This document shows, one piece after another, positions 1 through 48,381 of a stretch of 64,000 nucleotides of DNA (positions are counted from its first letter, which is position 1; every line of letters begins with the position of its first letter). The position numbers and the translations under genes were made by a program. The stretch is from NCBI RefSeq assembly GCF_036669915.1, contig NC_089316.1, positions 22,287,997 to 22,351,996 on the forward strand, in the 5' to 3' direction. This DNA comes from Pocillopora verrucosa. Lineage: Eukaryota; Cnidaria; Anthozoa; Scleractinia; Pocilloporidae. The notes under the pieces were generated by a model, which searched no databases, was not told the origin of the DNA, and saw nothing but the letters and a program-made list of their open reading frames with translations.

Positions 1-478
1 ACGTAAAACGTGTACAAACACATTTTATTTCCTTTTACTTCCTGATCCGAACAGACGGCTAGGTGTTGATATAGTTGTCTTTCGAAGCAATAATGAAGTA
101 ATCACATATTCATACGGTAGAGGAAATACATCAGAATATTTTTGAAGCTCGTACTTTTATTTCAGGATTCCTTTCTCCAGTTACACCGATATGAGTGTGG
201 ACCTCGTCGTTAATTTTTCTTCACTTCTTCTTCTCTCTTGCTTATTAGTGTATTCATTCACGGGCAGAAATCGAACTTAAAAAGTAACGTAATTGACGTC
301 TACAGCTTCCTTTTTAATGATGAGTTGTTGGACAAAACAGAAGTCTGATGATTGAAGCTATTTTCGTTTTGACCCTAAGGTTTCTTCTATTAGATTGAGA
401 ATTGTTATTTTCCAACAGACGATTCGATCCGCTTTTTTCATGAAGTTAGATTACTAAAAACCTTGTCTTTTAAGGTTA
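1..478. repeat. Copy A of a 478-bp repeat also found in intron 8 of the ROCO gene
   Basis: The sequence from the window edge to about 478 aligns over its whole length with 26714-27196, with scattered substitutions and small indels. In the second copy the similarity stops at the splice acceptor of the first OTU exon (CTTTTCTAG then exon). Here the same place reads CTTTTAAGG and the exon sequence does not follow. It could be a dispersed element that ends at the acceptor, or the edge of a segmental duplication whose other half lies left of the window. No coding sequence is visible in it. Confidence 0.85.
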
Positions 479-1453
479 AAGTGGCAGGCTCCTACAGTCA
501 CTTTGATCGACCCTTGTGAAGAGCCCGGCCTAGTAGAATGACTTCATAGCCACACAGACTATTGATAGAAATTGGCCAACCAGAGCTTTCTTCAGCCTGA
601 TTTATCCAAGATGAACTTTAGAATCTTAGGTTTAATCGGAAGTTGTATAGTATTAGTTGGCTAATGTAATGCATGAAAAGGAAAACAACCCAAATGACAT
701 GGGGTGTATATAGAAAGGACATCACACCGTGAAAAGTTATCGTAACTATTAAAAAGTATTCATGTCTACGGGGAACACAAACTATTACCAATGTTAAACT
801 TTATTTAGGGGGTTTGAATCATGAACTCGATTACTCTTAATTTTAATGGACAAACAAAAACATTCCTTGCAACGTACCATCTGTATGTAGAGCTGAATAA
901 CAACTTGCATTCTTCATATATCGATATTTTAAAACGTAATCGAGGTAATTCCTATACAAAGAAATAATAACACATTTGATCGCGGTTTAAATCATACTGT
1001 TCGATCAGAATGCTGCTTTAGGCTCTACAGCACCATGATCTCAGCAATGCATGAAATAAACAGCACTTACAGTAATATGCTTTCTTCCCACATTTAGAAG
1101 GCAATCGATAAATGAGATAAACTGCAGAAGTCCGTTGGCTTGAAGTGCCTATACTGATTAACATGTAAAAATTAGAAAATCGAGGTTTTTAAGGGTTCAA
1201 GACTCCAGTCTGAACTGATGAGTTGGAAACGTTCCAAATAATAGTACTTTGATGGAGTTTAGGCCGGAGCTATTTTCGGATCTAATTGATGTCAAGTTTA
1301 ATACCGATTGAATTTCTTTTCCTTACGTTCAGCTTCAAACAGCATTTCAGAGCATTTACAGCCATAACTCAACATAGCGTCATAGAACAACAAAATTTTG
1401 CACTCTACGGCTAATTTCGATACTGGCGCTGACGAAGCAACCTCCATTATTGT
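479..1453. other. Spacer, nothing recognised
   Basis: AT-rich sequence without a convincing open frame, tandem repeat or inverted repeat. Confidence 0.5.
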
Positions 1454-7700: not shown

Positions 7701-8661
7701 TTTCTAGATATGTATTGAGATCTCATTTAACCCCTTCGCTGATATCACTGGACGAAAAACAAAATTCCGGTCACGGAAGTGTTGCTAAAACCTGTGTTTC
7801 CATTGCGGAAACGTAACGGCTAACATGTGTTTCCGTTAACAGAATCATGATATCTACTCTCGTTGCTGTGGACACAGCGGAACCGGACCACTTTTCTACA
7901 TGTTTCCGATGGAGAAGAGGACAAGATTTTTTATTACTTTGAAAAAATGTGAAAAACTCCAAATTTTGGAGATCACTGAAATGACTCTTTATCCTGAGTG
8001 TTATTTATTATTCTTACATCAATTTTAACTATTACTTAGCGGTAAATCCTCTCTCAACCTGCGCATGCACACAGAAAAAACCTAAGACTAAAAAATGTTT
8101 AGTGAAGAGATAAAATTGACAGCGTACTAAAAAGTGACCGTCACGTGTTAGACCTTTTCGACGTTTTGCTCCTTATATGCAGTCCAACTGGTGCATCAGT
8201 AGAAAAGGAGAGCCTGTAGCTTTTATATAAACGATCCGTTTGCCTTTCCTTGTGTGGCGACTCCGCATACTGTGCGCCCTGCTCCCATATAAACCTGTAT
8301 ATAGTTATCAGTGATTTTAGAAGACTGCTGACACCAACCGCTGTCTCGATTGAGCCATCCTTTGCGTGGATAATAGCTGAGATAATTGGAACTCGCAGTG
8401 ATTTGGGCGTCAGGTAGGATGTTTGGATCCTCTACTCCTAACGCTTCGCAAGATGGTGCAGCTGGAAGAAATGTAAATTCAGAACTTTTGTATATATTAT
8501 TTCAACACGCTCGTTGCGCTGGTAATCAGATCTTTGACACATGTATTCTACGTATTCCACGGCATTTTCTTTTGAGGTTTCCTTGTAATTGCTACTTTAA
8601 GTGTAATATCGGTTTTTTTATACAAATGTAGATGCCCTTCGCAAACCAAGCTACAAACCTT
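4701..8661. other. Long spacer, no supported gene
   Basis: A TA-rich microsatellite lies at about 4706-4742. Open frames near 4785-4988, 5762-6112 (+) and 7771-7962 (-) show no domain, splice context or conserved motif. Around 7100-7300 there is a degenerate block (CGGTTACGGACCCGAGG) whose meaning I cannot tell. Confidence 0.35.
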
Positions 8662-8722
8662 GTTTTTCTGCTCGATTTTATGGCCCAGGCACAAAGATGG
8701 TCATAAATCCGAGCAGAAAAAA
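8662..8722. repeat. Short inverted repeat (hairpin)
   Basis: TTTTTCTGCTCGATTTTATG is followed after a short loop by CATAAATCCGAGCAGAAAAA, giving a stem of about 20 bp with one mismatch. No gene flanks it closely. It may be a small foldback element. Confidence 0.6.
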
Positions 8723-9130
8723 GGGAAGGTTCTGCCAGTAAATAGACAAATAAATAAATAAGTTGATAAATAATTAATCAAATAAATAAATTTAAAGGAT
8801 AAAACAACTTGACATGGATCTACTTTACCAACATAATAAGTGCTTTATCAAGTTTTATTACACTGATGTCAACAAATACGAGCAATTGAGTCTTGTTACC
8901 CGCTGTTTCCATATCGCAAGGAACAAGAACTGTTTTTCCCTTTATAATGGAATCAAGCCAGTAACTGCCACTGGTCGCTTTCCCCTCTTCGCTTGCTTTT
9001 ATATCTTTACACGTTTCCCCTGGAAATTCAGGAATGGAGCCAAGAGGAACTGAGGATGGAGAATAGTTTTATCAGGTACAAATTACTTCAATGAGCGCCA
9101 GTGCTAAGGCTGCCTTTTGTTGAATCTCAC
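8723..9130. other. Spacer, nothing recognised
   Basis: AT-rich, with an AAATAAATAAATAA-like run near 8745-8800. An open frame of 79 codons at 8814 on + has no recognisable content. Confidence 0.4.
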
Positions 9131-9434
9131 CTCTTTTCTTATTACTCCTAACATAGTATCTCTCAGAATTTGGCACAAAGTTCTCTGGTCTGGCTTCCTT
9201 AGTCCTGTTGTTTAGTTCACATAGCTATTCTGAAATGACGTAGTTGAAGCTGTGACACCTGAAATCATTGTAACATGCCTGATGGCATTCAAATGCAATC
9301 GATGATCTCATTGTCCTGAAGGTGTGTCCTCGCAGCATCATACCGGAAATGGCATGCTCATCCTCCTTGCATTGTTGAGTGAAAACTTCGGACACGTAGC
9401 ACATGCACAGTACAATTACAATGCAGAATCGCAT
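9131..9434 (-). pseudogene. First exon of a secreted PAN/Apple-domain protein, interrupted by an in-frame TAG
   Basis: From the ATG at 9434 the product begins MRFCIVIVLCMCYVSEVFTQ, a good signal peptide. A PAN/Apple domain follows with the expected pattern: GMMLRGHTFR, then FECHQACYNDFRCHSFNYVI. TAG stops the frame at 9227-9225. Past the stop the same frame continues to match the family: LCELNNRTKEARPENFVPNS, then ERYYV, up to a good splice donor (AGAG|GTGAGA, intron from 9130 downward). A single nonsense change inside an otherwise intact exon therefore fits best. PAN proteins are secreted or surface proteins, often with EGF or lectin modules. No further exon was found to the left. A start 52 codons upstream is possible but would bury the signal peptide. 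Confidence 0.7.
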
Positions 9435-10070
9435 TGTTATTAGCACTGACTCGTCCTTTTCTGTAAGAGAAATTTCATAGGCTGACATTTGGATGATTTG
9501 GGTGGAAGAAAGAGCTATAATGCGAAATTTTTCAATCATGGTTGAGAATGCACCAAAATTAAAGAAAAGAAAGGAGAAAAAATAGAACAATCAAAGTGGG
9601 GATGGATTTTGACACTTGAGATGCAGTTTGGACGACAGCTTTGTTCGTTGTAAAACCAGCGAACTTATAGAACTTACTTGTTTATCACACAATCCATGCT
9701 CTTTTTCGTTTTTGAAACATTCATCATAACTTTTGAAGTGCGATGTATCTTTTCTTTAAAAAGTATTTCTGCACGCCTTAGGACAACAACTACCTGGAAA
9801 CTTTGATTTAGGTGCACCATTACGGGATTATTTTTAACTTTTTTTTACGATGAGCGGTTAAAATTTGTTACCTTTTACGCTTAACGGTTAAGTTTTATAG
9901 CCGTTTTACGGCCATAAAAGAGAATGTCCTCTACCCTGGCCTAGTGTCTGACAGAAAGTTTGTTTTCGCAGACGAAGTCATTTTTTACAATCTTAAACCA
10001 TATTTCAACGGAATACGGTTGTCTTTTGTTGACATATTCATTCATCCAAGATCAATGTTTAAGATCAATG
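9435..10070. other. Spacer upstream of the PAN exon
   Basis: Would contain the promoter of the PAN gene; no clear TATA box or other site stands out. Nothing else recognised. Confidence 0.35.
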
Positions 10071-10526
10071 CCAAGCCTAAAAGCGGAGCTCGCATTTTTT
10101 TTCCCGCACGTCCCAAGGGCACAAGGCCTTGCCCCGGCCAGGACTAGAACCCGGGTCGTCCCGCTCGGGGCCCAGTGCACTGACCACTGGACTACTGGAC
10201 AAAGCCGTGGCGCTGGCGTGCCCGCGGTACAGTTGACCACGCATGTTAAAAGTAGCACCTTGTACGGTCGTGCGGTCGTGCGGTCGTGCGGTCGTGCGGT
10301 CGTGCGGTCGTGCGGTCGTGCGGTCGTGCGGTCGTGCGGTCGTGCGGTCGTGCGGTCGTGCGGTCGTGCGGTCGTGCGGTCGTGCGGTCGTGCGGTCGTG
10401 CGGTCGTGCGGTCGTGCGGTCGTGCGGTCGTACGGTAGTAAGTCCAAATTTTTTCGGCTTGATGGGTTACTATTACTACTACCATTTTGTATAATCATGG
10501 AACTACGCTCTGCGAGCTCCGCTATA
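10071..10526 (-). mobile_element. tRNA-like SINE or MITE with internal 8-bp minisatellite, copy 1
   Basis: The ends are inverted: AAGCGGAGCTCGCA near 10080 and TGCGAGCTCCGCT near 10510. On the minus strand, 10196-10131 carries polymerase III promoter-like boxes: TAGTCCAGTGGTCAGTGCA (A box) and GGGTTCTAGTCC (B box). Between the tRNA-like head and the right end sits the CGGTCGTG array. A second copy with almost no array lies at 29795-30090. Long open frames on both strands here come only from the array. Confidence 0.75.
10265..10432. repeat. Perfect 8-bp minisatellite, 21 units of CGGTCGTG
   Basis: The array is 168 bp long and without error except that the last unit ends in TA instead of TG. 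It is followed by CGGTAGTA. The equivalent place in the other copy of the host element (about 29987-30014) holds only about three damaged units. The perfection points to very recent expansion by slippage or unequal exchange, or to an assembly-sensitive locus. Eight is not a multiple of three, so the three frames cycle and give artificial repeat proteins. Confidence 0.95.
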
Positions 10527-11074
10527 ATTGACTCACACAAATCTGCAAGAGAGAATAAACACAAAACAAAATCAAATTTAACTATCCCATCCTTTAGGAA
10601 GACGTAATGATACAATATTGGGATTTTTTAAAGATCATAAATAAAAATAAAATAAACATGGCAACTTAGAAAATCGGATAAGTTCTGCAAGCACTTTTAT
10701 AGTTTAGAAGCTTTAGACTTCTCTTTACATATTTTGTTATTCTTTTAAAGGAGTTGTGTAAAGCTCATTAATCATTAAGCGGCTAGTACAGTCCTCAAAC
10801 ACTTAGATGTCTATTCACGCTTAACCAGTGTGGAGAAGATCAAAATTAAACAACGAAATTTGACACTCTGGTCATTATAGACATATCGCGTCATTTAAAG
10901 GGACACAAACGAGTTAAAATACGTTACAGTGTTTGGTGAATGCTTTCCATTTCTCCCGAAATTTAGCTCACAGAACTCCATGAACCAACCCTCCTTTCCG
11001 CAAATTTGTTTCCATCATTAATGATGGAAACAAAAACTTACCATCTCTCTTATTTCTATCTAAAAACATTACGC
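10527..11074. other. Spacer, nothing recognised
   Basis: AT-rich sequence. The palindromic TTTCCATCATTAATGATGGAAA lies close to its right end, at about 11010-11031. Confidence 0.4.
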
Positions 11075-11290
11075 TATTGACATTGCTGATCCAAGCAGTA
11101 CACAGGACGCGTGTCATAGGCGCTCACCGTGGAGTCTCTGTGGTTCAGTGGTTAGAGCATCAGAGCGGGGAATCCGAAGGCCTGAGGTTCGATTCCTCAT
11201 GGGGACTCAGAATTTTTTCTTCGTCCCGCGTTCGTGACAAGACGAAAAAAACATCTTTCTCTATCATTAATGATGTTACGCTGTTATGGA
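11075..11290 (+). mobile_element. tRNA-derived SINE, copy 1
   Basis: The 73-nt stretch 11134-11206 folds as a tRNA. The acceptor pairs GTCTCTG with TGGGGAC, the D stem pairs GTTC with GAGC, and the T stem pairs TGAGG with CCTCA around the loop TTCGATT. The anticodon arm (TCAGA/TCCGA) has a mismatch and an 8-nt loop, so it is not a working tRNA. The 3' part (CAGAATTTTTTCTTCGTC, then GTGACAAGACGAAAA) and the 5' leader (GACATTGCTGATCCAAGCAG) recur in the copies at 62.4-62.7 kb, so the unit is about 215 bp. TTACGCTATTG and TTACGCTGTTA flank it as a likely target duplication. Confidence 0.8.
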
Positions 11291-17431: not shown

Positions 17432-18083
17432 ATGGATTCCCATATTTCTAAAGAAAAGCTGAGAAGTAAGATTGTAACAACTTTTTCCGGAAGAAAAAAC
17501 TTAGATCTGTCAAAGTGGGATTTGCTTGAATTGCCTAAAGCGGTGCTGGAATTAACTGAGTTGGAAGAACTTGACCTGTCATGGAATAAACTTAGAACGA
17601 TACCTGAAAATGTTGGAAAACTAAATAATATTACGGTACTTAGTGTAAGCGGAAACAAGCTGTCCACATTCCCTGCAAGTTTGACACAGCTGAAGAAACT
17701 CCAATTGCTGTTCATCTCAGATAACAAACTAACCACCATCTCTGATGCTATTGGTGAGATGGTGGCACTGCAGCTACTGGATCTGAGTTACAACCAGTTG
17801 ACTGTGTTGAGTCCAGCTATAAAACAGCTGAAGAAACTCAAATGGCTGTTCATCTCACATAACAAACTAGCCACCATCCCTGATGCTATTGGTGAGATGG
17901 TGGCACTGTGGGAACTGGATCTGAGTTACAACCAGTTGACTGTGTTGAGTCCAGCTATAAAACAGCTGAAGAAACTCAAATCGTTGTTTGTAAATGGGAA
18001 TCCTTTTACAGTTGAAGAAATGAGAAGTGTTGCGGAGCTAGAAGATAGAGGAATAATTGACCGAGTATATTCAGATCTCCAAG
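17432..18083 (+). CDS. ROCO gene exon 1: leucine-rich repeats
   Basis: Codes residues 1-217 and ends at CCAAG|GTGAGT (phase 1). It holds seven to eight 23-residue LRRs of the pattern LxxLDLSxNxLxxIPxxIGxL. Two of them together form a 46-residue unit (138 bp) that is repeated in tandem at 17687-17824 and 17825-17962 with nine base differences. The partner of the repeats is unknown; LRRs usually bind ligand or fold back on the switch. Confidence 0.9.
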
Positions 18084-21000
18084 GTGAGTAAAGGAAATTT
18101 CTGTTCACATTATTGTTGTGACGTGTGCATTTACTAAATTGGTTCTAATGATTGACTTGCAGGTGGTTATTCTGCTTGTTACTGATTATTACAGGTAGCT
18201 GGCGATAGTTAAACTGTAAATACTGTCACAGTTTTTGTGTGATTTAACAAAGTTGGCATCACTTGAGAAATACATGACATTTGTAATGGAAGTTTTTGTT
18301 CCAATATTGAAAAGCTTTATTTTAACAATTTGGCTGACATTGAAATTTAAGTTCATCAATAAGGAAATATGATTTGATGTGGAACCAAGAGAGTAAATGT
18401 TGTTACAAATCATTCTACGCAGTTAGGAATTACTGTTTTGAGTTTTCTTTCTATTGGAATGGAATTACGAAATGATAAAATGTATCCCAAGTTAATTCAC
18501 TGTTAGGAATTTTTTTTTTAATTTTTCCTTTCCATTTGGTTAATTTGAAGTGTTTAAAAATTTAGTAACTTGTGGCTTATCAAACACAATTCATAAACTA
18601 ATGTGATTAAATTTTGTGAATTAAGTTATAGGCATAGCTTGAATTTGTTATTAGCATGACTGAATCCTGATTATTATTTCCATAGAATTTACACTGCAGG
18701 TGTTTTTTGTGTAATTATTTTTAAACTTACAGTTGTTACCCTTTGGAAATATGTGCTTTTTTTTTTCGTACACAATCAATTAATTGGTTATTGACTCCTC
18801 ACTACTCGGCAGAATTGATTTAAGTCCTTGCCTCTCTCTTGTGTGATCAGTCACAAGTGGTTCTAATTCTTATTGTTCTGAAACATTGAGTCAGTTTAGA
18901 TTTGGTGTGCATGTTCTCAAACTCATCACATTTTATGCCAGAAGAATTATTATGTGTAACTTTTATGTAATAGTGGAATAAATGCATTAAGATCAGAAAA
19001 AAATAAACAATTTTGATAGTTAAGTTTATATATACCAGCCTTTAACTCCAACATTATTCATGTTAGGCATTTATAGTTGTTGATTTGTCAACCTTTACCT
19101 TTAGTTTGCTTTCTTTTTCAATTAATTTTTAGAAATTTATCAATGCGCAAACTACCTTTTTCTTTGTGTTGTTAAAACTCTTTCTTATTAGGCCCAATGA
19201 GAGAGAGACTTAAAGCACAGCTGGCTTATGAAAGGGCTTTGCAAGATGGATATGTCATGGTTTACCGTGGCAGAATATTACTCATTGGTCAGGATCGAGC
19301 AGGTAAAACCAGTTTAAAGAAGAGTCTGCTAGGCCTTCCATTTGACTCTGAAGAACAGAGCACTGAGGGGATTGAAGTGGATCCTTCAAAGTGTGAAATT
19401 GATGTTGACCAAGCTGCAAGGAACTGGCAGTCCATTGGTGAGAATAAACCAGGACTATTGGAATGTTCTAAAGATGTGGCAAAGATTGTTGCAGAGAAAC
19501 TTTTTACTCAAGAAGATCATCATGCTAGAAAAATGTCTATGCAGCAAGAAAAGGTGAGACAAAAAGACTCAGATAAAAGTTCAAAAGAAGATTTTGAAAA
19601 AGATTCAGCCCACATATCACCTGCAGATTTTGAAAAGGGATCTTTAGGTAGTTACAAACATGGCAAAAAAAAGGTAATATCAGAATTTTAAAAATGTTCT
19701 TCACACACATGTTTAAGGCAGCTTTTTATGACAGTATAGTTTTAAATATTTAATGTCAAATGAAGATTATGTGAGCCTTAAAGTGAAGCAAAAATTAAAA
19801 TTGTTCAATTTTTTTAACTGATTTTTTTTTACTTTGCAGTGGTCTTAGCCAAAAAACAGGGAACTGCTTGAAGACTAAACAATAATTTCCCTCCCAGTAC
19901 ATGTACTCTCATTTTATCTAATTTACATCAAACTTTGACACAGTTATTTGAGATGTGTAATGAGTTTGCTGGTGAGACTGAATCAGTGTGGTACTGAGAG
20001 TAAATAATTTCCCCTTATTTGATACTTTACTTAGGTTGAGGATAAAGAAGATTACCCATCAATAGATGCTATGGACAACATGCCAGAGGTAATTATTGAT
20101 GTTGCTCAACCCCCTGATACTGAGAAGCATGTTCATCAGTGGTTGGAGTATCTCAAAGGCAAAGACATCAAAAGTGGTTTATTCCAAGAAGAATCCTATT
20201 ACACTATGGATTTATGGGACTTTGCAGGGCAGCACCTGTACTATGCCAGCCATCCTATCTTCTTATCACAGCGAGCACTGTACATATTGGTGCACAATCT
20301 CAGCAAGCCTTTGGATGCTACAGCTGAGCCCTGCATGAGACAAGGTAGTAATGATGTGAAATTGGAAAACCCTAACAATGAAACAAACATGGAGAATTTG
20401 CTGTCATGGCTGGCTACAGTACACAGTGTTGCCCTGGCAACTGATGACCCAGATGATGATACACAACATAGGCTTCCCTACCTCCGCCCCCCGGTGTTTA
20501 TTGTTGGAACACATGCTGACAAACCAGTTGAAGACATAGCAATAATAAAGAAACAAATACAGGAGAGAATTTCTGGTATGAAATATGAGAAGCATGTGGT
20601 CAGACCCTTATTCTGCATTGACAACACTCAGAGACCAAACTTCATCAAGAAATTTATCCAGAAGTTTCAAAAGCTGAGAGGAAAACATAAAACAGGTAAG
20701 ATATTTGATGTCATATTGTATCCTTGACAATAATTGATGGTTTAATAATTGGTTACTAGCTTGTCTTTGCATCAATTCTTCGAACACTTAATTTGTGACC
20801 ATTTTTTTGTTTAATCAAAGACCCATTTCTGACCCTCCATGGGAAAATGGACATTAATACTTTTCATTTAAACTGCAAAACCGTTTACCATCTGCTTAAA
20901 TCCATTTAAATGGTTCATGAAAGTGTTTAAACAATTTGCTAATCCATTTAAAAATAATTGCATCCGTCTAACCCTTTTGCTAAAACATTTAAGTGCTGTG

Positions 21001-24000
21001 CTAGTCCATTCAAGAAATTTTGCATCTGTTTAAGAAATTTTGCATCCGTTTAAAAAAATTTGCATTTGTTTAACACTGTAGCAAAAACTTTTAGACAGTT
21101 TCCTTCAGTTGTCTGTTTTAAAAAAAATCTATCTGATCAACATTCCAGAGAAACTTTAAACCGTTTGTTTGCCATTCTGTTATGAGCAGTTTGAAGTATC
21201 AATCCCACGTTTGGTTGATACTTGCCAGTTCTTGAAATGCAGAATGACCATATATTATTTTGGTTTTATCTTTTCCATGATCATAGAAAGTGAGTAATCG
21301 TCCCATTCTTGGACAAACAAGTTAAAATATCCGGTTGTAGAAACGTAGAGCATCAAGAGCCAAGGAAGCCATTCATTTGACTATGATACTGCCATCAATA
21401 TTGTTTGATCAGAACAGTGCACCTGATCTTTGTTTACATATTTGGAGAAGGAGAAGGAGCAGGAACTATTATGAAAAAGCTATTGTTTCTTAATGTCAGT
21501 TCATCTACCCTGTCTATTTAGCAGGCTTAAAAATTATCACAAATTCTCAGCAACTGGAAAGCTATTTTGTTGTGGTAAATTGATATCAATGTTTATAGAT
21601 TGATGTAGATTGTTGGAAAGCATTGAGCATGCAATAATTATTATTTGACTTACATTTACATGTCATCCAGCAGTTGTGTTGTGTGTCATAATTTTAAAAC
21701 GTTGGTAGACATGCAGAATGTTTAAGAGGGAGTGGTAATTAAGGGAAGGATACTGTCTTGGTTGAATGACTTCAGGCTTATAGTGCAAGCTTAAGTTAGA
21801 ATTGTTTAATTTTTTTATTAGCTGCAGTCTTCTTAGCTTTCAGTTACTTTATGTACCAGCATCACCATACTAGGCCATATACATTTTTGCTGACATATCC
21901 ATTAATTTCAGAGTTTGAAATAAGGAACAGAAGATGATTTGGGGAGTTGAAGAGTTTATCATCTTAGCTATGTTGTCAGCAATGAAATATCAGTAATCAC
22001 AAATGTAGGATACAAACTATTCTCATTGTAAACACATGTTTCTGTGTTACATTATGTTTTGCATTCATTTTCTAAACATATCCAGCAGAGGAAGAAGGAA
22101 AAGCAGATGGAATAAAAGAATTGCAGAACAAAATCCTGGAGGTGTTGAGGCAGGAGCCTTATATGGGAGAGAAAATACCTGTCAGGTAAATGAAAGTAAC
22201 GTTTTATTTGGCAAACCTCAATTTGTGGACTTTGGGATTAATGTTATTCATGTATTCAAGTGGTTATGAAAAGTTTTTTGAAGAGCAGTCAGTGTTTTCA
22301 TTATTAATGTATATGAACACAAAAATATTGTACCTACCCTAGTTTGAAGTTCATCAAAAATAATTCTTAAAACATAAGACTGTACGAATACACAGCAGTC
22401 ATATAAGTGCAAACAAATAAAACTCTTATTCATGACATCATGACAATATTGTGTTTTTTAGAAAGGTGTGAATGTCTAATGGATATTTGAGAAGGCACAG
22501 CTCTTTGAATTGAGATTGTTTATGTGAAAAATAGAACGATGTTTGAACTCTCGTTAACAGGGCGTGAAATTGCGCCTAATACAGGCGCCAATGCGACTAA
22601 ATTTTTCACTTTGACGACCAAATCCTGAAAGTTAGTCGCCAAGTTGGCGACTAGAACGTTTCATCATAACCTTACCAAGAGATATCGTGAATTAAAAAGA
22701 TTTGCAAAGATAAATCCGCGGCAAACTTCCTCGTTAAGTTTGTTTCCAAAACGTAGCACATGCATCTCGATCGATTACTAGACGCCATCTTGGATTTAGA
22801 TGAGCCTGAACGTTGTATATCACCATCCTAGTGTCTACTTTGTAGCACGTTAAAGATCTTTTCCCTAACTCAATTTTGGAGGGTCTATCTAGAACGCGGA
22901 CAGCGTAAAGAAAGATTTTGTTTGTCTTTGAAAATGGCGACCAACTTGGAGAATTGGCTACCACTTTGAAGAATTTAGGAGCCAAGTGGCTATCAGAAAA
23001 AAAAGTTAATTTCACGCCCTGTCGTAATGTGTGGAGAAAGCTAGACCAAGGAAATAGATGAGTTAACACTGGAAGACTACAAATAAGCACATGTCTGACT
23101 GAAGTTAACATCCAATTTTTAAACCCAAAAACATTTTAATTATTCTGTTGCCTTCTAGATGGTTTTTGTTTGAAAAGGTGATTGAAGCTTTGGTGGCTAA
23201 ACAGATTTATCACAGAAATCTGCAACAACTTGAGCACTATGCAAAGAAAGATTGTTTCATGAAAGATGCAAAAGAGTTTGAGTCCATGATCAGTTTTTAC
23301 CATGGCCTGGGGATGATAATCAAGCACCGCAGTACAGTTGTACTAAAGGCTCAGTGGTTGATTGATCTGTTCAAACAGCTGATAACCATTCCACCTTTCA
23401 ATAAACAGGTAGGAAAGAAATTTCATTTTTGAAAGGACCTAACTTAGAAAATGTTCTATAATTTAGACCAACAGAAAATGAGAGTGATATTTTTTAAATA
23501 AATCAGCAACTAATGCAACAGCTGTAATTCTTTGATCATTACAATTGTTGGACCTCAAATTATTTCATGTACCTTTTGCAGCTTTTCAGGTCATAAACTG
23601 ATTTAGCCTTTTTACTTTACAAGAGACTTGCATTAACTTGCCATCACTAACAATAATTGTAGTCACACAAGTGAACAGTTCTTTTTACTTGCGCTAAATG
23701 GCTTCTGCGGTGGTGAATAACAACTAATAATCACCTCTGAGGAGCCTAAGATACAAAATTGCACATCAAGAGTGTAATCTCCGACCATTGGGATACATTG
23801 ATTTTCTAGTTCTTTTACATACATGTTGGAAACATTCAAAAGGAACATTTAGTGGACTTCTCTTATCTGGAATTCCTGTTATTTATATATTTTGTAGAAT
23901 GCTCGATATGCTAATTTCTGGCGGGAGCTTGAAGGAAGTGGCATCCTTAGCATGGAACATGTTGATTACGTGTTCTCCAGCTTTATTGGACCAGGAATCA

Positions 24001-27000
24001 TTAGAGAAGACATCCTGGACATGATGGAGCAATTTGGTTTGATCGCTAAGTTCTCAGTTTCCCCAAATGAGGAGAAGTACTTTGTACCAGCTCAGTTGAA
24101 GTCATCACCAGTAGAACTCTGTAAGATGGAACCATCATCAACTGATCCATGTCCATTGTATTTCCTCTTTGTCCATGGCTTTGTCCCTCATGGCCTCTTC
24201 TTGCAGCTTGTCTCGAGATCCATTCGTTGGTGTTCAAAGACATGGGCCATGCATCAACCCACCCTGTACCAAAATGGGGCATGGTTCATCATTGGAAAAG
24301 ATATTCATGATTTTGTCCTTATATGCAAAACAGGATTTGTGAAGGTAATCTTGAGACAAAAAGCACAAAGTCATCAGGTTGTAGGACAGAACTCAGTCGA
24401 ACTAGCAACTCTTGTTCGTGAATTTCTTGAAGACACCCTAAAGAATTTGTCACAAGAAATGCCATACCTGAGAGGACTGCAGTATAAGTTGTGTGTTGCA
24501 TGTCCAAACTGTCATCAAGGGAAAGAAGAAATGTGTCGTGCATGCTCAGACCACATGAAAACCACTTGTACACACAAGGACTGCCTCCACCTCATTGATG
24601 CAAATGAAGGTCAGCCGGACATCTGTAAGCGAAAACCTTGGGATATGGTAGAACTAGTTTGTGGATTGGAGAAATGGTTCTTGAAAAGAAGCCAGGTATT
24701 GACTGTAATGATCTTTCAAGCAAAGATTTCTAGCCTCAGTTTGATGTTTGCTTTGCTCCTCTAATTTACTTGATGTGAATATCAATTGGGCTGTTATCAG
24801 TGTTGACAAAGGGAGCGCTGATAGGTCGTCTTCCATTTTAAATATAAGTCAGAGAATTTGTAACAAGATGAAATTATTTTTGACTTCTATTCTTTTTCGT
24901 TTTACCTTGGTAAAGTATTGATCAATTAAAATTTATATGACCACAACCAAAGTTTTTTCAATGTAATTACCATAATGTTATATGACCCTTTTTTTCTTCA
25001 GGGTTTGTCCTCTACAAATGTATCTGCAAGATCACATGATGAAGCAAGTGAAATCAATCCAAAGAAGTCTGCCACAGCATTGAAGGTGACTCTCCTGGGC
25101 AGTGAGTGGAGTTCGTCAATGGGAGGCTTGTCCACCATCAACAGACAGCTTGCCATTCAGTTGGCCAAACACTCTGAGGTGGATGTTACTCTCCTTGTCC
25201 CACAGTTTGCTCGTTCTGAAGAAGAGAAGAGAATGGCATCAAGTCACAATGTTTCCATCCGGGAAGCCGAGAAACTTGCAGGCTTCAGTGATCCTCTTGA
25301 ATGGTTGAGTTTCCCACCAGGAGATCTTGACATTGACTTTGTGCTGGGTCATGGTGCAAAGCTTGGTAAGCAAGCCCAAGTTATCAGAAAGTCTCACAGT
25401 TGCAAGTGGATTCAGGTGGTGCACACTGCACCCGAAGAACTAGGAATGTACAAGGACTATCCCATGGCCATTTCCAAAGGTGAAGATAAGAGTACAACTG
25501 AAGTGGAGTTGTGTAAGTTGGCAGATGCTGTTGTAGCAGTTGGACCAAAGTTGACGAAAGCCTACTCTTTTTACCTGCGCTCATGCGAGAAGCACCAGGA
25601 TATAATTCAACTGACGCCAAGCACGTTCAGAGAGTTTTCCGACGTTAAACAAGCTGCAGTTGACATGGACAACTTTAAGGTTCTAACATTTGGCCGCGGT
25701 GACCCAGAGGACTTCAGCTTGAAAGGCTACGATATCTCTGCCAGAGCAATAGTTGAACTGAAAGACAGGTCTTACCATCTGACTTTCGTGGGTGCACCTG
25801 ACGGTAAACAGGAGGAGGTTGCAAAGAATTTACTCAAGAGTAAAATTGATAAAAAGCAGCTGACCGTGAAGAAATTTGTGCAAAGCGAAAAGCGATTGAA
25901 AGAATTATTTTGTGAAGTTGATCTCTGCATCATGCCCTCTAGAACAGAGGGGTTTGGTTTGACGGCTTTAGAAGCGTTGTCTGCTGGTCTTCCCATTCTT
26001 GTCAGTGGCAACTCAGGATTTGGTGAAGCACTGTGCACTGTACCATTAGGCAAATCATTCGTGGTGGAGTCTGAGGACCCTCAGGAGTGGGCAAAGGCAA
26101 TTGCTGGTGTGCGACAGAAGAAAAGATCAGACCGACTTCAAGATATTCAACAGCTGAGGAGGTCATATGAAGAGAAGTTTAGCTGGGAGAAACAGTGTGA
26201 CAGTCTTTTGGAGAAGATGTGGGACATAGTTCATGGTGAGAATGTTTTGAATATCCTTCAAAAAGTATTTTGGGGGGCTACTTGGCTTTTGGTCTCTTAT
26301 TAACTGCATTGAAAAGCATGAACACCTCATATAAAAAGAGATGTTGAACATGAATAGTAATCAATCGTTTTATCCTCATGTTGTTTACTGTGTTATTAAA
26401 ATAAAAGCCTCTTTCTATCTTTTTAGCTTCTAAAAGACGAGACACAAGTTTCAGAGCTCAGCAGATCCAAGTTGTTGACACGTCAACCGAACAGATAACA
26501 GTGGATTTATTACTGACTCCAAGTGAGTAAAAGAATTTAATAACACATAATAATTGATATCCCCAAAGAAGTACAGACAGGTTACAAGGAGATCCAGTAA
26601 TTTTCTTTCCTTAACTTTGGCTTCAGGCCAGCTATGCTTCGTAAAAACTTAACAAGGTACTTTTAACTTATGAGACATGTTTGTACTTATACTGATGCAC
26701 TCTTCAGTCAAAAACGTAAAACGTGTACAAACACATTTTATTTCCTTTTACTTCCTGATCCGAACAGACGGCTTGGTGTTGATACAGTTGTCTTTCGAAG
26801 CAATATTAAAGTAATCACATATTCATACGGTAGAGGAAATACATCATAATACTTTTCAAGCCCGTACTTTAATTTCAGGATTCCTTTCTCCAGTTACACC
26901 GATATGAGTGTGGACCTCGTCGTTAATTTTTCCTCACTTCCTCTTCTCTCTTGATTATTAGTATATTCATTCACGGGCAGAAATCGAACTTAAAAAGTAA

Positions 27001-28420
27001 CGTAACGGTAATTGACGGCTACAGCTTCTTTTTAAGGCTGAGTTGTTGGACAAAACAGAAGTCTGGTGGTTGAGCTATTTTCCTTTCTACCCTAAGGTTT
27101 CTTCTATTAGATTAAGAACTGTTATTTTCCAACAGACGATTGTTTCGCTTTTTTCGTGAAGTTAGATTTCTAAAAACCTTGTCTTTTCTAGGTTCTCTGG
27201 ACCGAATCATTCAGGAACTCCACCGGATGCAATTCGATGCAAGGAAAGTCAAGAGCAGAACAGATCTATCATTAGGGCTGAGGAATATTGCATCAGACAG
27301 GGGCTTCAGAATATCTGACAATCAAGGATCAGGAAATTGCATGTTCTACGCCTTGTCCGAACAACTGGAAATTGTTAAGGGAATCAAAATTCCACATGGC
27401 GAATTGAGACAAAACTTAGTTCAGTACCTCAGGGGCAACCCAAAACTTGTAAGTTGATGTTAGTATGTCTAACAGAGTATGTCACGTGATGTTATTTAAT
27501 GAGTATGATAAAGATATACCGATGATACAGGCTACTTGGCTAACATCACCAGAACCTATCCCAGTTTTCACAGCATGAAGTCAACCAGAAATATTGTTAC
27601 TCCTCCTGTATGGAATGATGGTCTTTTTTTCAGGAGTTCTGATACCAGCTTGTACTCCTGGTTGAAAGGGGAACCTGAAATATTTAACTTTATTATTTGA
27701 GAAGCCACACAATGACTTTGGTTACAGTTTAATTCATATGTTGTTTAATGCGGTGTCTGAAGACGCAGGCCAACCCGGTTTTAGTCATTTGAATATTTAA
27801 TTTTAAAAAAAGTTGGCTTTAAACTACCATCAGAAAATAGAATTCTAGTCATTCTCTTAATGATGGATCTTTTTTGTTGTTTTCCTGCTGTTTGCAAAGT
27901 GTTTTGATACATACACAGACGTTTTGAAAGACGTTTCAATCACAAAATTTGTTACTATGCAGTAAATTGCTACTCAAAGGTTGTCTCGTACCATTCTCAT
28001 AGAATTACTACCTGACTTGTACTCCATGCGCTCAACTCCTATCAACAATCCTTTTAAGTTTCCTTCTTTAACTAATTCTTCTTACAGCCGGATGGAACAG
28101 ATCTGTTTGACTTTGTCCATGGACATCAAACATGGACTGAATACCTAGTACACATGGAACAAGATGGCGCTTGGGGCGATCACGTGATTCTGTGTGCCGC
28201 AGCAAACTACTTTGAAACGTGCATTCGTGTGGTCAGCAGTCTATCCCATAGCAATGATGTAATCATTACGCCACATTGTCCAGTTGACGAAAGCAAGCCT
28301 CTCGTGCTGGGACATATTCATGAGATGCACTATGTCAGTCTTCAACCCGTGCAAGGTAACTGGGGACTATTGTCTGATTGGCTGGGAGCAACTCGAAAAT
28401 CCTGGTGTTCTATTGGCTAA
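17432..28420 (+). CDS. LRR-Roc-COR-GT4-OTU multidomain protein (ROCO-family fusion), ten coding exons
   Basis: Joining 17432-18083, 19192-19673, 20035-20695, 22086-22185, 23159-23408, 23898-24695, 25002-26235, 26427-26522, 27192-27448 and 28088-28420 gives 1620 codons and a stop with every junction in phase. Order of domains: leucine-rich repeats (about 20-205), Roc GTPase with P-loop GQDRAGKT (250-257), DFAGQ (440-444) and THAD (537-540), COR (about 600-900), a Cys/His cluster (about 905-935), a GT4-type glycosyltransferase (about 1009-1390) with E1297-x7-E1305, and an OTU protease domain (1425-1600) with D1467, C1474 and H1591. TGA lies two codons before the ATG in frame. ROCO proteins are GTP-regulated dimeric switches; GT4 enzymes transfer sugar from a nucleotide donor; OTU enzymes cleave ubiquitin. 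The role (danger sensing or signalling) is inference. The last exon may instead splice at 28355. Confidence 0.85.
17687..17962 (+). repeat. Tandem 138-bp duplication inside the LRR exon
   Basis: Two copies of a two-LRR unit starting CAGCTGAAGAAACT. A third start follows at 17963 but soon diverges. Of the nine differences, four cluster at CAGCTA versus TGGGAA, in the variable face of one repeat. Confidence 0.95.
18084..19191 (+). other. ROCO intron 1
   Basis: AT-rich with T runs. No element recognised. It ends in TTTCTTATTAG. Confidence 0.8.
19192..19673 (+). CDS. ROCO gene exon 2: Roc domain N-terminal half with P-loop
   Basis: Codes residues 218-378. A helical linker precedes strand RILLIG and the Walker A motif GQDRAGKTSLKKSL, typical of Roc GTPases. 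The second half is an acidic and basic low-complexity stretch (KDSDKSSKEDFEKDS) that probably forms a loop insertion. Donor AAAAAAAAG|GTAATA. Confidence 0.88.
20035..20695 (+). CDS. ROCO gene exon 3: Roc domain C-terminal half
   Basis: Codes residues 379-598. It carries the switch II motif LWDFAGQHLYYASHPIFLSQ, the typical Roc form of DxxG followed by Gln and His, and the base-specificity motif as VGTHADK. The donor AAAACAG|GTAAGA follows a Lys-rich helix. Confidence 0.9.
20696..22085 (+). other. ROCO intron 3
   Basis: Around 20860-21080 a short motif built on CATTTAAA and AATTTTGCATCYGTTTAAG recurs. The last three units (about 21010-21078) are 20-23 bp tandem copies. Otherwise unremarkable; no gene. 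Confidence 0.7.
22086..22185 (+). CDS. ROCO gene exon 4: Roc-COR linker
   Basis: A 100-bp exon: AEEEGKADGIKELQNKIL then EVLRQEPYMGEKIPVR. The acceptor TATCCAG and donor GTCAG|GTAAAT keep phase with both neighbours. The length and helical character suit the start of COR. Confidence 0.8.
22186..23158 (+). other. ROCO intron 4
   Basis: Contains the CAGGGCGTGAAATT element at 22558-23022, described separately. A minus-strand open frame of 125 codons lies inside that element and is not taken as a gene. Confidence 0.75.
22558..23022. mobile_element. DNA element with CAGGGCGTGAAATT termini inside ROCO intron 4
   Basis: The left end is ACAGGGCGTGAAATTGCGCC and the right end TTAATTTCACGCCCTGTCG, forming terminal inverted repeats of about 14 bp. 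CAGGG termini and a length near 465 bp are usual for non-autonomous hAT-type elements (family knowledge). Clear 8-bp target duplications are not visible. Internal inverted blocks occur (GTCGCCAAGTTGGCGAC, and GGCGACCAACTTGG). Confidence 0.65.
23159..23408 (+). CDS. ROCO gene exon 5: COR domain, first part
   Basis: Codes residues 632-715. It starts WFLFEKVIEALVAKQIYH and contains ISFYHGLGMIIKH, then VVLKAQWLIDLFKQLIT. The FHxLGxIL and D/xPQWLxDLxKxLIT pattern is the hallmark of COR. Acceptor GCCTTCTAG, donor AAACAG|GTAGGA. Confidence 0.88.
23898..24695 (+). CDS. ROCO gene exon 6: COR domain, remainder, and Cys/His cluster
   Basis: Codes residues 716-981. It continues COR with WRELEGSGILS, DMMEQFGLIAKF and YFVPAQLKSS. 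Near the end (about 905-935) lies a cluster read as VACPNCHQGKEEMCRACSDH and then CTHKDCLH, with seven Cys and several His. This is a likely zinc-binding knuckle of the type seen at the end of COR in MFHAS1-like and other animal ROCO proteins. Donor AGCCAG|GTATTG. Confidence 0.88.
25002..26235 (+). CDS. ROCO gene exon 7: GT4-type glycosyltransferase domain
   Basis: Codes residues 982-1392 in one exon. It begins with strand VTLLGSEW and the glycine loop MGGLSTINRQLAIQLAK, as in GT-B folds. It includes the donor-side strand LTFGRGDPEDFSLKGYD and the sugar-nucleotide motif SRTEGFGLTALEALSAGLP, which keeps both Glu of E-x7-E, so an active retaining GT4 enzyme is plausible. The donor and acceptor sugars cannot be told. 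That the whole domain sits in one exon suggests it was captured as a unit. Acceptor TTTTTCTTCAG, donor TTCATG|GTGAGA. Confidence 0.88.
26427..26522 (+). CDS. ROCO gene exon 8: linker between GT4 and OTU
   Basis: A 96-bp exon: ASKRRDTSFRAQQIQVV, then TSTEQITVDLLLTP. Its predicted character is a strand-rich linker. The acceptor CTTTTTAG and donor CTCCAA|GTGAGT preserve phase 1 on both sides. Confidence 0.8.
26523..27191 (+). repeat. ROCO intron 8, mostly copy B of the 478-bp repeat
   Basis: Positions 26714-27196 match window positions 1-478. The match runs through the pyrimidine tract and AG used as the acceptor for exon 9, so the repeat, if mobile, supplies the splice site. Confidence 0.85.
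27192..27448 (+). CDS. ROCO gene exon 9: OTU domain with catalytic Cys
   Basis: Codes residues 1425-1510. A helix is followed by RISDNQGSGNCMFYALSEQL, the OTU motif with Asp1467 and nucleophile Cys1474, then HGELRQNLVQYLRGNPKL, typical of the helices after it. Donor AAACTT|GTAAGT. Confidence 0.88.
28088..28420 (+). CDS. ROCO gene exon 10: OTU domain C-terminal half with catalytic His
   Basis: Codes residues 1511-1620. WTEYLVHMEQDGAWGDHVIL matches the OTU block before the central strand. LGHIHEMHYVSLQP ends in the H-Y-x-S-(L/V) motif that carries the catalytic His1591. Reading on gives GNWGLLSDWLGATRKSW and a stop at 28418. GCAAG|GTAACT at 28355 could instead be a donor, in which case further exons would be needed; none is recognisable before 31 kb. 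AATAAA lies at 28765-28770. Confidence 0.85.
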   Translation, partial: PDGTDLFDFVHGHQTWTEYLVHMEQDGAWGDHVILCAAANYFETCIRVVSSLSHSNDVIITPHCPVDESKPLVLGHIHEMHYVSLQPVQGNWGLLSDWLGATRKSWCSIG

Positions 28421-28764: not shown

Positions 28765-28770
28765 AATAAA
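28765..28770 (+). terminator. Candidate polyadenylation signal of the ROCO gene
   Basis: AATAAA about 345 bases after the stop codon; the best placed hexamer in the first 400 bases. Confidence 0.4.
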
Positions 28771-34797: not shown

Positions 34798-35337
34798 TTA
34801 TTTTCTGCATTTATTTGCGTTTGCCTTGTCTATCCAAGCCAAAAATTCGGAGAAGGAGACAGTTCCATTGCCATCTTTGTCCACACTTTTGAGAGCGATG
34901 GCGATCTGCTCCTCGCTGCATAGGTTCCATTCCTTGCTTCCAGAAGCCAACAAAGCTCGAAACTCTCTCCTGTCGATCACTCCACTCGCGTCTCTATCGT
35001 ACTTTAGAAATTCGTCGGCAACTCTTCGGACGTAAGCGTATCGGTTTCGGTCGTCGATCACATTGAAACCTTCGCCGGCACGAAACCACAGTAAAAACTC
35101 TGTAAGAGAGACTTTCATATTTCCGTCTTTATCGACAAGCAAAAAACAAACTTCTGCCTGCTTCTCGTCCAATCCCATGTCTCGCAACATCGCTAAAATC
35201 TCGGTTTTCTCTAAGCATCCACTGTTATCCAAGTCGTATTTTCTGAAAATGCTCTTGATCACGACTTCTGGAACATCATCACGAAAGAGACTTTTACCAG
35301 CCATATCCACCGATGTAGACTTCAATGAGGAGCACAA
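34798..35337 (-). CDS. Four-EF-hand calcium-binding protein (calmodulin-like), intronless
   Basis: 179 codons in one exon with four complete EF-hand loops: DLDNSGCLEKTE (about residue 35), DKDGNMKVSLTE (69), DRDASGVIDRRE (113) and DKDGNGTVSFSE (153). Each keeps acidic or polar ligands at positions 1, 3, 5 and 12, so all four should bind Ca2+. There is no signal peptide or membrane segment, which suggests a cytosolic sensor or buffer. Inter-hand spacing is wider between loops 2 and 3, as in calmodulin. A second ATG at codon 12 (MAGKSLFRDD) is an equally good start and gives 168 residues. No close neighbour shares its strand. Intronless structure suggests an old retrocopy or lineage-specific family (inference). 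Confidence 0.88.
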   Translation of the reverse strand: MCSSLKSTSVDMAGKSLFRDDVPEVVIKSIFRKYDLDNSGCLEKTEILAMLRDMGLDEKQAEVCFLLVDKDGNMKVSLTEFLLWFRAGEGFNVIDDRNRYAYVRRVADEFLKYDRDASGVIDRREFRALLASGSKEWNLCSEEQIAIALKSVDKDGNGTVSFSEFLAWIDKANANKCRK

Positions 35338-36175
35338 GCCCAGAGGTTGTTTTCAAACACGGATTCACTCAAAGAGAGGTGTTTAAGTCTTGCAAAACCT
35401 CCAGGAGACAGTTATCCACATCTGTTAATCGCTGCAGTATTTATTTTAAGTGTTGATTTCCATTCAGCTTGGTTTGTTGGCGGACAAGCGTAACTCAATT
35501 GGGTGTAATTGACTCTATTGGGAGTCGATTCAGAAAAATTGAACTACAAATCAAAACTCGATGTGCAAAACAAAACATTCGTAGTTACCTTTAAAAATAT
35601 ATATACCTTAAAAAGACTAGCCATAAGAAATGAATAAATAATAAAGATGTTGAGGAAAATAATTGTGATCTTAGCGTGCCATTTTGAGCCGGCGATTTAT
35701 CAAACCTGCTTGATTCTTCTTGGTGAAAAAAAAAAAAGGAAGAAGAAGACTACAGATATTTAAAGTACTCTTCAAAAAAGAATCTCAGCTTCAGATAATT
35801 CCGTCTTTGTTCTACAAATCTTCCCGTTTCTTTTGAGATGCAAATTTAGTCTAGATGGGGGCCATGAATAATGAAAACACTTTAATTTTTATTTGCATTT
35901 TATCCCCTTTCTTTTGATTTTCTGCATCTTTTGGCAAGAGCTTTAGTAGTCATGGACTTTTTAACCTCCTTAATCAATACATGACCAGCTCGTGAGGTCC
36001 CTGAGAGATCATTGGTCAGCATGCAGCTGCAGGTGCACTCTCCGTTGACTCCGTGAAATGTGGCTTAGGACGATATCTGACACATAATAAAATACGTGTT
36101 TATTGTTCATCGTGGTGTAAGATAGGAGATGAACTTTATTAGATTGTCTCACGATGGAGTCACTTTGGATGTTGA
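35338..36175. other. Spacer upstream of the EF-hand gene
   Basis: On the minus strand AAAATAAATACTGC lies about 105 bases before the ATG, a weak TATA-like site. The rest is AT-rich and featureless. Confidence 0.35.
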
Positions 36176-38476: not shown

Positions 38477-39781
38477 TTATTTGTTTGATCTAAGGAATAA
38501 CTGTTTTAAATTATGAGCAAAAGCTCGCTTCCTTTCGGTAAGATCTCCGTAATTAAGGTAAAACCTAACAAAATTAGACACCAGAACCGGAGTGGGAAGA
38601 CAGAACAGTACCACCCCACTCATGGCGCAAAAAGAGCCAACAAATTTCCCTAGGGGGGTTATAGGAACCACATCGCCATAACCTACACTTGTCATGGTGA
38701 TTATCGTCCACCAAAAGGCGTCTGGAATGCTAGCAATGTTTGGATCTCCTTCGGCGTAGAAAATTGCGCTGGAGAATACCACGACTGCAACTATGATGCA
38801 AAATCCTAACGTCTTAAGCTGCTCTACACTGGAGTATATAGTGTTGACTAATAACTTAACGGCATCGCTGTATCTGGAGAGTTTAAAAACACGTAGAACT
38901 CTAAATAATCTTATTGCACGTAACACGGCGAAAGAGCGCACTTCCTCAGTGCTGTTTTGAAACGCTAAGGTTACATAGAACGGCATAATGGCTAGTACGT
39001 CTAAAATCCCCATTGTGGACTTGACAAAATGCCAAACGACTGGCGCTGAGTAAAGACGAACAGAGTACTCAATTGTAAACCATGCAACGAATATCCCCTC
39101 CATAACAAACCAGTAATCGACAATATGCTCTTTGTAAGGCACACGGGTGTAATGGCCGCCTATGCTAACGTTCCGGTAAGTTGTCTTCGGTTTGAGCGCG
39201 AGCGCTGGAATAGTTTCGATACAGAATACAACAGTTGAAAAAACAATGACGAAAATCGCCCAAAGTGCAAGAATCCGCGCGGTTTTGGAAGACCGCGGAT
39301 ACTCAAACCACAGCCAAAGCTTTCGCTTGTGTGGACTAAGAGGTAAAATTTCTTCCACATCATCCTGCGAGGCTGACAAATCCTCGTCGCTGTCCGAGTA
39401 ATAACTACCGGGCAAACCGTAGAACTCAATTTCTTGCATAAATGTTTCTTCACTGACCGTTGGCGGTTTGGCAAGAATACCGCGTGATTGGTAAAAGAAT
39501 AGAATGGCGTCGAACGATGGCCTATCTCGAGTGAAAATGTATTCACCTAGTGCAGAGCTGTAGAACTCCATGCGTCTAGATGGAGAGCCGAGCAGCGTGT
39601 CTGGAAAATTCCCCAAGGTCTCCTCGTATGTTTCAAAGCGCATACCGCTGACATTGATGGTAACTCGTGGGCTATTGTAGGCTGATTTATAAGATGGTAC
39701 ATTAATATAGTTTGCGACTCTCCGCTGTCGGGGAGTTTGGAGCGGGGGGAAGTTTATCGCGGCGTTATAAGCCTTAAGCAT
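38477..39781 (-). CDS. Shaker-type (Kv1-like) voltage-gated K+ channel subunit, intronless, copy A
   Basis: 434 codons. The T1 tetramerisation domain spans about 39-122 (VTINVSGMRFETYEETL ... FFYQSRGILA). S1 is near 168-192, S2 221-245, S3 254-273. S4 carries R288, R291, R294, R297, K300 and R303 at every third position. S5 is 326-344, the pore has filter TSVGYGD (364-370), and S6 follows with PTP at 396-398 in place of the usual PVP. A tetrameric K+ channel of the plasma membrane is expected. The short C-tail lacks a PDZ-binding end. Start: first ATG of the frame, with about 38 residues before T1. Two relatives lie at 48382 and 51328. The changed PxP could alter gating or make it a modifier subunit (inference). 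Confidence 0.93.
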   Translation of the reverse strand: MLKAYNAAINFPPLQTPRQRRVANYINVPSYKSAYNSPRVTINVSGMRFETYEETLGNFPDTLLGSPSRRMEFYSSALGEYIFTRDRPSFDAILFFYQSRGILAKPPTVSEETFMQEIEFYGLPGSYYSDSDEDLSASQDDVEEILPLSPHKRKLWLWFEYPRSSKTARILALWAIFVIVFSTVVFCIETIPALALKPKTTYRNVSIGGHYTRVPYKEHIVDYWFVMEGIFVAWFTIEYSVRLYSAPVVWHFVKSTMGILDVLAIMPFYVTLAFQNSTEEVRSFAVLRAIRLFRVLRVFKLSRYSDAVKLLVNTIYSSVEQLKTLGFCIIVAVVVFSSAIFYAEGDPNIASIPDAFWWTIITMTSVGYGDVVPITPLGKFVGSFCAMSGVVLFCLPTPVLVSNFVRFYLNYGDLTERKRAFAHNLKQLFLRSNK

Positions 39782-47700: not shown

Positions 47701-48381
47701 TACAAAGGATAAAGATGAACTGAAAACATAAATACGCATTGTTTTAATTGGCGTGTTTTTGGATCATGGCGTCATCTGCCGCACTTCCTTCTTACGGTTT
47801 CACCTCTGTTTTGAGGTTTGTGTGGACGATAAAAAAAATAAGCTGAGGAAAATGTTTCTATAAATGGTAAACTTGAACACCTTGAAATATCGACCAGCTC
47901 ATGTTAAGAGGAACACCATGGAATCGCGCAACACTGAATTATTGATGAAGGTTTTTCTGTCTTGTTTTGAAATCATACCGGTTTTAGTTTTGTGTTAGTC
48001 AAAAGCATTGATTAACCCTTCGCCTATTGTTTATGAAAATCAGACGGGTGATATCACTACTGCATTAATTTAAAATAGATTTGTTCTTAGGGGCAGAACG
48101 AATCCTGCAGTGCTTTCAATTCTACCAGCAACAAAAGGACACTTTTAAAAATTAATCGGCAAAGCGCATCTGTTACGGAATTTGAAGATTTGTTTACATG
48201 AAACATTTTTCATCATTAGCTCGTTAATACAGACAATATAAGGTCAAGCTGCTGTAGTGGAAAAAAATATTTTTACTGTCGATTGTAAAAACATGGCAAA
48301 ACCTTCAGCTTTCGATAATACATGTCGAATCCATACAATGGTAGTCCGGGATATTAGGAGCTGCAGTTTCATTCATACTGG
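44783..48381. other. Spacer upstream of Kv copy B
   Basis: Trinucleotide-rich AT tract near 45480-45560. On minus, 45901-45806 reads GIPPFSDTLCLDEEERLLLT then LSTLGKPKKSDK and a possible donor, preceded by a stop, a possible exon remnant. No other candidate. Confidence 0.35.

Follow-up and report, generated by a model that had tools for sequence, protein, structure and literature searches.

Here we report a gene of the coral Pocillopora verrucosa whose predicted product carries leucine-rich repeats (LRRs), a Roc-COR switch, a GT4 glycosyltransferase domain and an OTU domain in one protein, an arrangement well supported by in-phase splicing and by conservation across paralogues. The gene occupies positions 17432-28420 of the forward strand of a 64,000-nucleotide stretch (the window; RefSeq assembly GCF_036669915.1, contig NC_089316.1, here C5:22287997-22351996). 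We suggest that it probably encodes a cytosolic immune receptor of the Roco type, one of a family amplified in tandem, in which GT4 would be the effector and the OTU would be directed to ubiquitin, because its domains are kept together and conserved, the number of its LRRs varies and the ligand-facing LRR positions look diversified.

A first-pass annotation, made from the letters of the window, had joined ten exons in phase to 1620 codons, and a check of splice sites and frames bore this out. All junctions are in phase, GT-AG borders are present at nine of nine introns, and there is a single terminal stop; the acceptor of exon 4 is a tandem CAGCAG, with a start at 22089 or 22086, giving a product of 1619 or 1620 aa. 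No signal peptide was seen by eye at the protein start in exon 1, and AATAAA stands at 28765-28770, 3′ of exon 10. The exons are listed below, where family B refers to diverged paralogues described further on.

17432..18083 (+): exon 1, LRR sensor with ATG start (Pfam LRR_8, 1e-25)
19192..19673 (+): exon 2, Roc P-loop GQDRAGKT and a charged insert
20035..20695 (+): exon 3, Roc DFAGQ and THAD motifs (Pfam Roc, 9e-13; PDB Roco/LRRK2 matches)
22089..22185 (+; alternative start 22086): exon 4, Roc-COR link
23159..23408 (+): exon 5, COR-A (26 bits in the window copy, 38.3 bits in family B)
23898..24695 (+): exon 6, remaining COR-A, COR-B, then a Cys/His-rich possible zinc module
25002..26235 (+): exon 7, GT4-conflict glycosyltransferase (PF20706, 4.6e-82), with a pyrimidine-rich acceptor
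26427..26522 (+): exon 8, linker (median omega 0.93)
27192..27448 (+): exon 9, OTU with the catalytic Cys in G-S-G-N-C (PF02338, 7e-12)
28088..28420 (+): exon 10, OTU with the catalytic His in HYVSL; 28356-28420 is a copy-specific tail and stop

The LRR, Roc and GT4 calls of the first-pass annotation were confirmed by a Pfam profile search with the 1620-aa version of the protein, the Roc match falling in two stretches and the GT4-conflict match reaching 276.5 bits against a cut-off of 26 over profile positions 3-385 of 385. The OTU match scores 46.4 bits against a cut-off of 23.3 in the window copy and 58.6 bits in a family-B paralogue. The P-loop GQDRAGKT, DFAGQ and GT4 E-x7-E pair named earlier are all present, and the features that mark a Roco protein were found, namely a Roc GTPase with P-loop and DxxGQ and a COR domain directly after it. 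A profile search of the PDB gave strong matches to Roco and LRRK2 chains, carried mainly by Roc; 3dpu matches a stretch of the COR region weakly (i-E 0.66). Neither NACHT nor NB-ARC occurs among the 14 Pfam families matched at E ≤0.1, which rules out a NACHT-type NLR, so that the protein would be NLR-like in its working at most. In a NACHT scan of the same genome, 94 of 404 candidates were scored; those listed all lie away from the GT4-OTU clusters. No NCBIfam match exceeded its cut-off among the 25 listed of 38. At the end of exon 6, after COR-B, positions 24490-24662 are rich in Cys and His, with many of these columns invariant in 10 aligned copies, and may form a zinc module; a similar stretch was seen by eye upstream of a GT4 on contig C12.

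The order of the domains was examined across the genome (353 Mb, 52 contigs). A loose scan with PF20706 gave 60 matches (60 scored of 210 candidates) and was also positive in 14 of 14 control genomes; the family match alone is not specific there. The window GT4 as query gave 101 matches, each of at least 50% identity (101 scored of 221), and the COR exon gave 81, of which 75 were used for pairing after six fragments were dropped; all 101 GT4 matches and 60 of 96 OTU matches, including 54 of the 55 at ≥60% identity, were also used. Every one of the 14 COR copies with ≥81% identity to the window, termed family A, has a GT4 275-339 bp downstream and then an OTU 1.2-2.3 kb further on, on the same strand. 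COR copies at 50-54% identity are followed by a same-strand GT4 and then an OTU in 13 of 15 cases. The two exceptions lie at C14:2047637 and C5:22271207; the copy at the second site is broken, and 3.6 kb beyond it stands a remnant of an OTU, also broken (C5:22275370, 45%; not used in the pairing). Among 46 more distant COR matches, two have GT4 and OTU, two GT4 only, one an OTU without a paired scored GT4 and 41 neither, GT4 scoring being incomplete, so that the absence of a GT4 beside a COR or OTU is weak evidence. Seen from the other end, a scored GT4 precedes 47 of 54 OTU matches at no more than 8 kb, and within that distance no OTU match has a scored GT4 placed in any other way. The proposal of a fused protein had been made to depend on homologues with joined domains; such homologues exist within this genome, where the proposal was not refuted.

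Ten close paralogues were read, which together with the window copy make 11 family-A copies. Exons 4-10 are in order, open, in phase and bounded by GT-AG in all 11, the exon-10 donor of c22197 having been set by hand, and all ten exons were found in nine. The two incomplete copies are c20184, without exon 1 and parts of exons 2-3, and c22236, in which the sequence retrieved showed no exon 1 and exon 2 is split into pieces ∼5 kb apart, which suggests an insertion. Eight of the nine complete copies have no stop, and it is uncertain where exon 2 of c22147 ends. A family-B copy has every domain in the same order, with exon identities to the window of 32-37% for LRR, 50% for the P-loop exon, 54% for Roc, 63-64% for exons 4-5, 50% for COR, 67% for GT4 and 70-75% for OTU; exon 8 was not found in it. 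Conserved order and phase, together with the selection described next, thus favour the single protein of sensor, switch and two effector-like domains that the first-pass annotation had proposed.

Selection was estimated as median pairwise omega by the Nei-Gojobori method, the pairs not being independent. Median omega is 0.86 for LRR and 0.53 for the P-loop exon (nine copies each), 0.45 for Roc (ten copies), and 0.28 for COR, 0.29 for GT4, 0.93 for the exon 8 linker and 0.39 for OTU (11 copies each), with values below 1 in 55 of 55 pairs for GT4 and likewise for OTU. Exons 6, 7, 9 and 10 have a median identity to the window copy of 90.6-92.9% and exon 8 of 86.5%; the four intervening introns, from exon 6 to exon 10, have 85.4-86.8%. 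Because omega is low and these exons are more identical than the introns, substitution patterns indicate that purifying selection preserves the GT4 and OTU protein sequences.

The LRR region behaves differently. Exon 1 ranges from 652 to 1204 nt among nine copies, in steps of ∼138 nt that equal two 23-residue repeats. In the established LRR structure, the x positions of LxxLxLxxN lie on the concave, ligand-facing side. For 59 repeat units from nine copies, cut by period without a motif filter, piN/piS was 1.81 at the five x positions and 0.43 at the other 18 (bootstrap by copy 1.14-3.92 and 0.33-0.70, respectively), and we take this as the main figure. An earlier test on 66 motif-picked units gave 2.08 against 0.30 (bootstrap 1.41-7.44; 0/300 at or below 1); picking by motif favours low variation at fixed positions, and the unfiltered result is the weaker (1.81 against 2.08). 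The first test of all, on four positions chosen after the repeats had been viewed, gave 1.90 and 4.96 for two unit types. The ligand-facing positions therefore look diversified by selection, as in a pathogen sensor.

The C-terminal half appears to have been exchanged between genes. Two genes on contig C13 (10257201-10261765 and 10314889-10319829) each join a GT4-OTU nearly as close as those of family A to a Roc-COR that differs strongly, in a single long open frame; their GT4 is 83% and their OTU 89% identical to the window, and their COR 26-29%. By comparison, the corresponding values for 13 family-B genes are 68-72%, 73-80% and 51-54%. This pairing of a close GT4 and OTU with a distant COR suggests that a GT4-OTU half moved onto a different Roc-COR gene. 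A further 14 GT4-OTU genes on contig C12 (17.8-18.1 and 19.47-19.65 Mb) have no upstream COR recognised by the window COR query.

Several observations weigh against an intact and functional receptor family. The joined order is established within one genome. COR-A of the window copy scores 26 bits, below the Pfam cut-off of 35.3; the COR signatures reported earlier are therefore called on the strength of relatives, COR-A passing the cut-off in the diverged family-B paralogue (38.3 bits), and COR-B likewise scores below its own (17.3 against 27). Some family-A copies look decayed, with stop codons that fall within COR or next to it at C5:20139511 and 20155891 and within GT4 at C5:20137980, one stop in exon 2 of c1583 as modelled and one in exon 3 of c22236; the GT4 at C5:9475831 also has a stop, and that at 9363136 matched only in part. 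For the LRR x positions, 2 of 299 bootstrap values did not exceed 1, and the pairs are not independent. Finally, the Asp site of the OTU motif GDGNC is Ser in 3/11 family-A copies, including the window copy, and Leu in 8/11, and Val stands two residues after the His in 11/11. The family-B copy has Ser and Val at these sites, and an acidic residue was thus found neither at His+2 nor in GDGNC.

These acid positions bear chiefly on what the OTU domain does. The Asp/Cys/His set of the first-pass annotation is present as to Cys and the general-base His, both kept in 11/11 family-A copies and in the family-B copy, and lacks the acid at the usual positions, so that its suggestion of ubiquitin removal retains the profile match and the two catalytic residues and is otherwise weakened. 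Because neither usual acid position is acidic, protease activity is doubtful, and recognition of ubiquitin or a ubiquitin-like protein is the more likely function. The best PDB profile matches, OTUD5 and OTUD3 (E 4e-4 and 8e-3), have Asp in D-G-x-C where the window family has Ser/Leu-G-N-C. A receptor that mainly cuts ubiquitin chains, its OTU working as an active deubiquitinase through a Cys-His dyad or an A20-like third residue before the Cys, is the strongest competing explanation and nonetheless an unlikely one. It draws on the retained Cys and His, on the OTU omega of 0.39 and on two Asp columns N-terminal to the Cys that are invariant in a five-sequence alignment, set against the Ser/Leu and Val substitutions in 11/11 family-A copies and Ser and Val in the family-B copy. 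The acid is described as typically lying two residues after the His, with A20-type OTUs placing it before the Cys, and its mutation as causing complete, intermediate or no loss of activity (PMC7396840); OTU domains with lost activity have also been described (PMC4654579). For the neighbouring GT4, E-x7-E is kept in 11/11 family-A copies, and the GR..KG and E-x7-E columns are invariant in nine GT4s from different loci. We take these motifs to have catalytic and donor roles, and since they are kept, transfer of a sugar is plausible.

We propose that the LRR would bind a ligand derived from an invader or from stress, which would change the GTP state or dimerisation of Roc-COR. This change could release the C-terminal GT4, which would then use a nucleotide sugar to glycosylate a molecule of the invader or the host, and the OTU, by binding or trimming ubiquitin on tagged targets, may direct the transferase to them. 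A housekeeping signalling protein, for example one acting in trafficking like LRRK1/2 and amplified without a defence role, would account for the resemblance of Roc to Roco proteins and LRRK2; we consider it improbable, as tandem arrays, LRR diversification, apparent module swapping and a GT4 belonging to a family named for conflict systems all fit defence better. More improbable still is that neighbouring Roco, GT4 and OTU genes, co-amplified as a block, were wrongly joined: the exon-6 frame is open to a stop ending at 24764, which on paper permits an early end, yet the COR-GT4 gap of 275-339 bp leaves little room for a 3′ end and a promoter, 11 copies agree in splice sites and phases, the acceptor of the GT4 exon is rich in pyrimidines and family B keeps the order at 50% COR identity. 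We reject three separate genes on the same-strand COR-GT4-OTU pairing across copies, and a chance joining of open reading frames on in-phase splicing together with exon conservation and selection across paralogues.

If the immune-receptor reading is correct, an early animal lineage would use Roc-COR, familiar chiefly from LRRK2 and Parkinson's disease, as a switch for sensing pathogens, and one receptor would tie ubiquitin recognition to sugar transfer. The arrays would also offer a natural series of sensors, with differing LRR faces on one effector, in which ligand specificity could be tested. More tentatively, and with less confidence than in the receptor family itself, corals may possess a further intracellular receptor class beside NACHT and TIR, in which tandem Roco arrays with LRR faces diversified by selection and a mobile GT4-OTU cassette, exchanged among different switch modules, glycosylate an invader or host target selected by ubiquitin.

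The window gene appears to stand at the edge of its array. Similarity to all ten paralogues stops at 28358, where these have a GTAC donor, with the acceptor lying 142-331 bp further along; if this site is spliced, the protein would end with Gly-stop in eight of ten, with Val-stop in one and after ten further residues in one. The window copy has a GTAACT donor at 28356, and the paralogues' 3′ exon was not found downstream of it. It is probably the last copy of the array, with either a copy-specific tail of ∼22 residues or a further exon that escaped detection. Sequence resembling the 3′ exon does occur upstream of the gene, and we infer that it is the 3′ end of an upstream array copy; several stops interrupt the COR match that lies closest upstream (C5:22271004-22271785). 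Three potassium channel open reading frames and an EF-hand open reading frame lie downstream, adjoining the array edge. A single odd tRNA-like ARAGORN match at window positions 11134-11208, with a four-base anticodon gggg, is probably spurious. The flanking features are as follows.

463..905 (+): 3′-exon-like sequence, all or part of it 76-86% identical to what follows exon 10 in ten paralogues
34801-35352 (-): open reading frame of an EF-hand protein, by domain match
38480-39799 (-): voltage-gated potassium channel gene, long open reading frame with BTB_2 and Ion_trans
48358-49710 (+): voltage-gated potassium channel gene, long open reading frame with BTB_2 and Ion_trans
51331-52836 (-): voltage-gated potassium channel gene, long open reading frame with BTB_2 and Ion_trans

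Relatives outside the coral were sought in several collections. Viral contigs searched with the GT4 and OTU alignments gave no confirmed relative, and among plasmids there were 23 matching records, of which the 15 listed carry glycosyltransferases of 25-29% identity. A scan of genome contigs returned three bacterial GT4s at 30-31%, from Nannocystis, a cyanobacterial metagenome-assembled genome and Streptomyces; Roc-COR was not seen by eye in open reading frames of ≥200 aa near them, neighbours being judged by their first 80 residues. Among 292 genomes of the phylum of the metagenome-assembled genome, 223 had matches, and those listed lie in the GT4 half only. In Streptomyces sp. NRRL WC-3618, an open reading frame of 882 aa (8522-11167) bears what looks by eye like a TIR and an NTPase part, with a query-related GT4 after them.

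Among known systems, Roco proteins such as LRRK2, DAPK and those with bacterial Roco structures include the LRR-Roc-COR core, accompanied by a kinase, WD40 or death domain in place of the C-terminal GT4-OTU found here. ALG13 is likewise an animal protein with an OTU and a glycosyltransferase; its transferase part is of another family, and it is without LRR-Roc-COR. Its OTU triad is reported as intact, with OTUD4 alone shown to be active (PMC4654579). The coral GT4 or Glycos_transf_1 expansions (PMC8195603, PMC12314368, PMC4083563) are similarly large and lineage-specific, with GT4 fused to LRR, TPR or ankyrin repeats, and more than 500 GT4 paralogues of variable architecture are given for Acropora digitifera (PMC8195603). 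Coral proteins joining group-1 glycosyltransferase domains to LRR and NACHT are described (PMC12314368, PMC4083563); such LRR-type GT4 proteins often have NACHT in the middle, whereas the window gene has Roc-COR there and an OTU after the GT4.

The closest precedent is bacterial. Kaur et al. (2021, PMC8195603) describe LRR-AP-GTPase(Roc)-COR-GT4 proteins with a fast-evolving LRR and predict GT4 domains to be conflict effectors, and the coral gene would, if a receptor, be an animal counterpart of these predicted conflict proteins. The first-pass annotation knew of no described protein with this order; in word searches for the combination we found no paper in which an OTU is added to LRR-Roc-COR-GT4, and the term OTU occurs 0 times in the main text of PMC8195603, whose figures may hold the architecture, but the order without the OTU had been described in bacteria. 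The window gene matches that order, with an N-terminal LRR, an AP-GTPase-COR switch and a GT4 in the C-terminal effector position. In contrast to the bacterial proteins, it is spliced, animal and tandemly amplified and has one more C-terminal domain, so that the LRR-Roc-COR-GT4 part has a bacterial precedent and, judged against the published main text, the addition of the OTU is what appears to be new.

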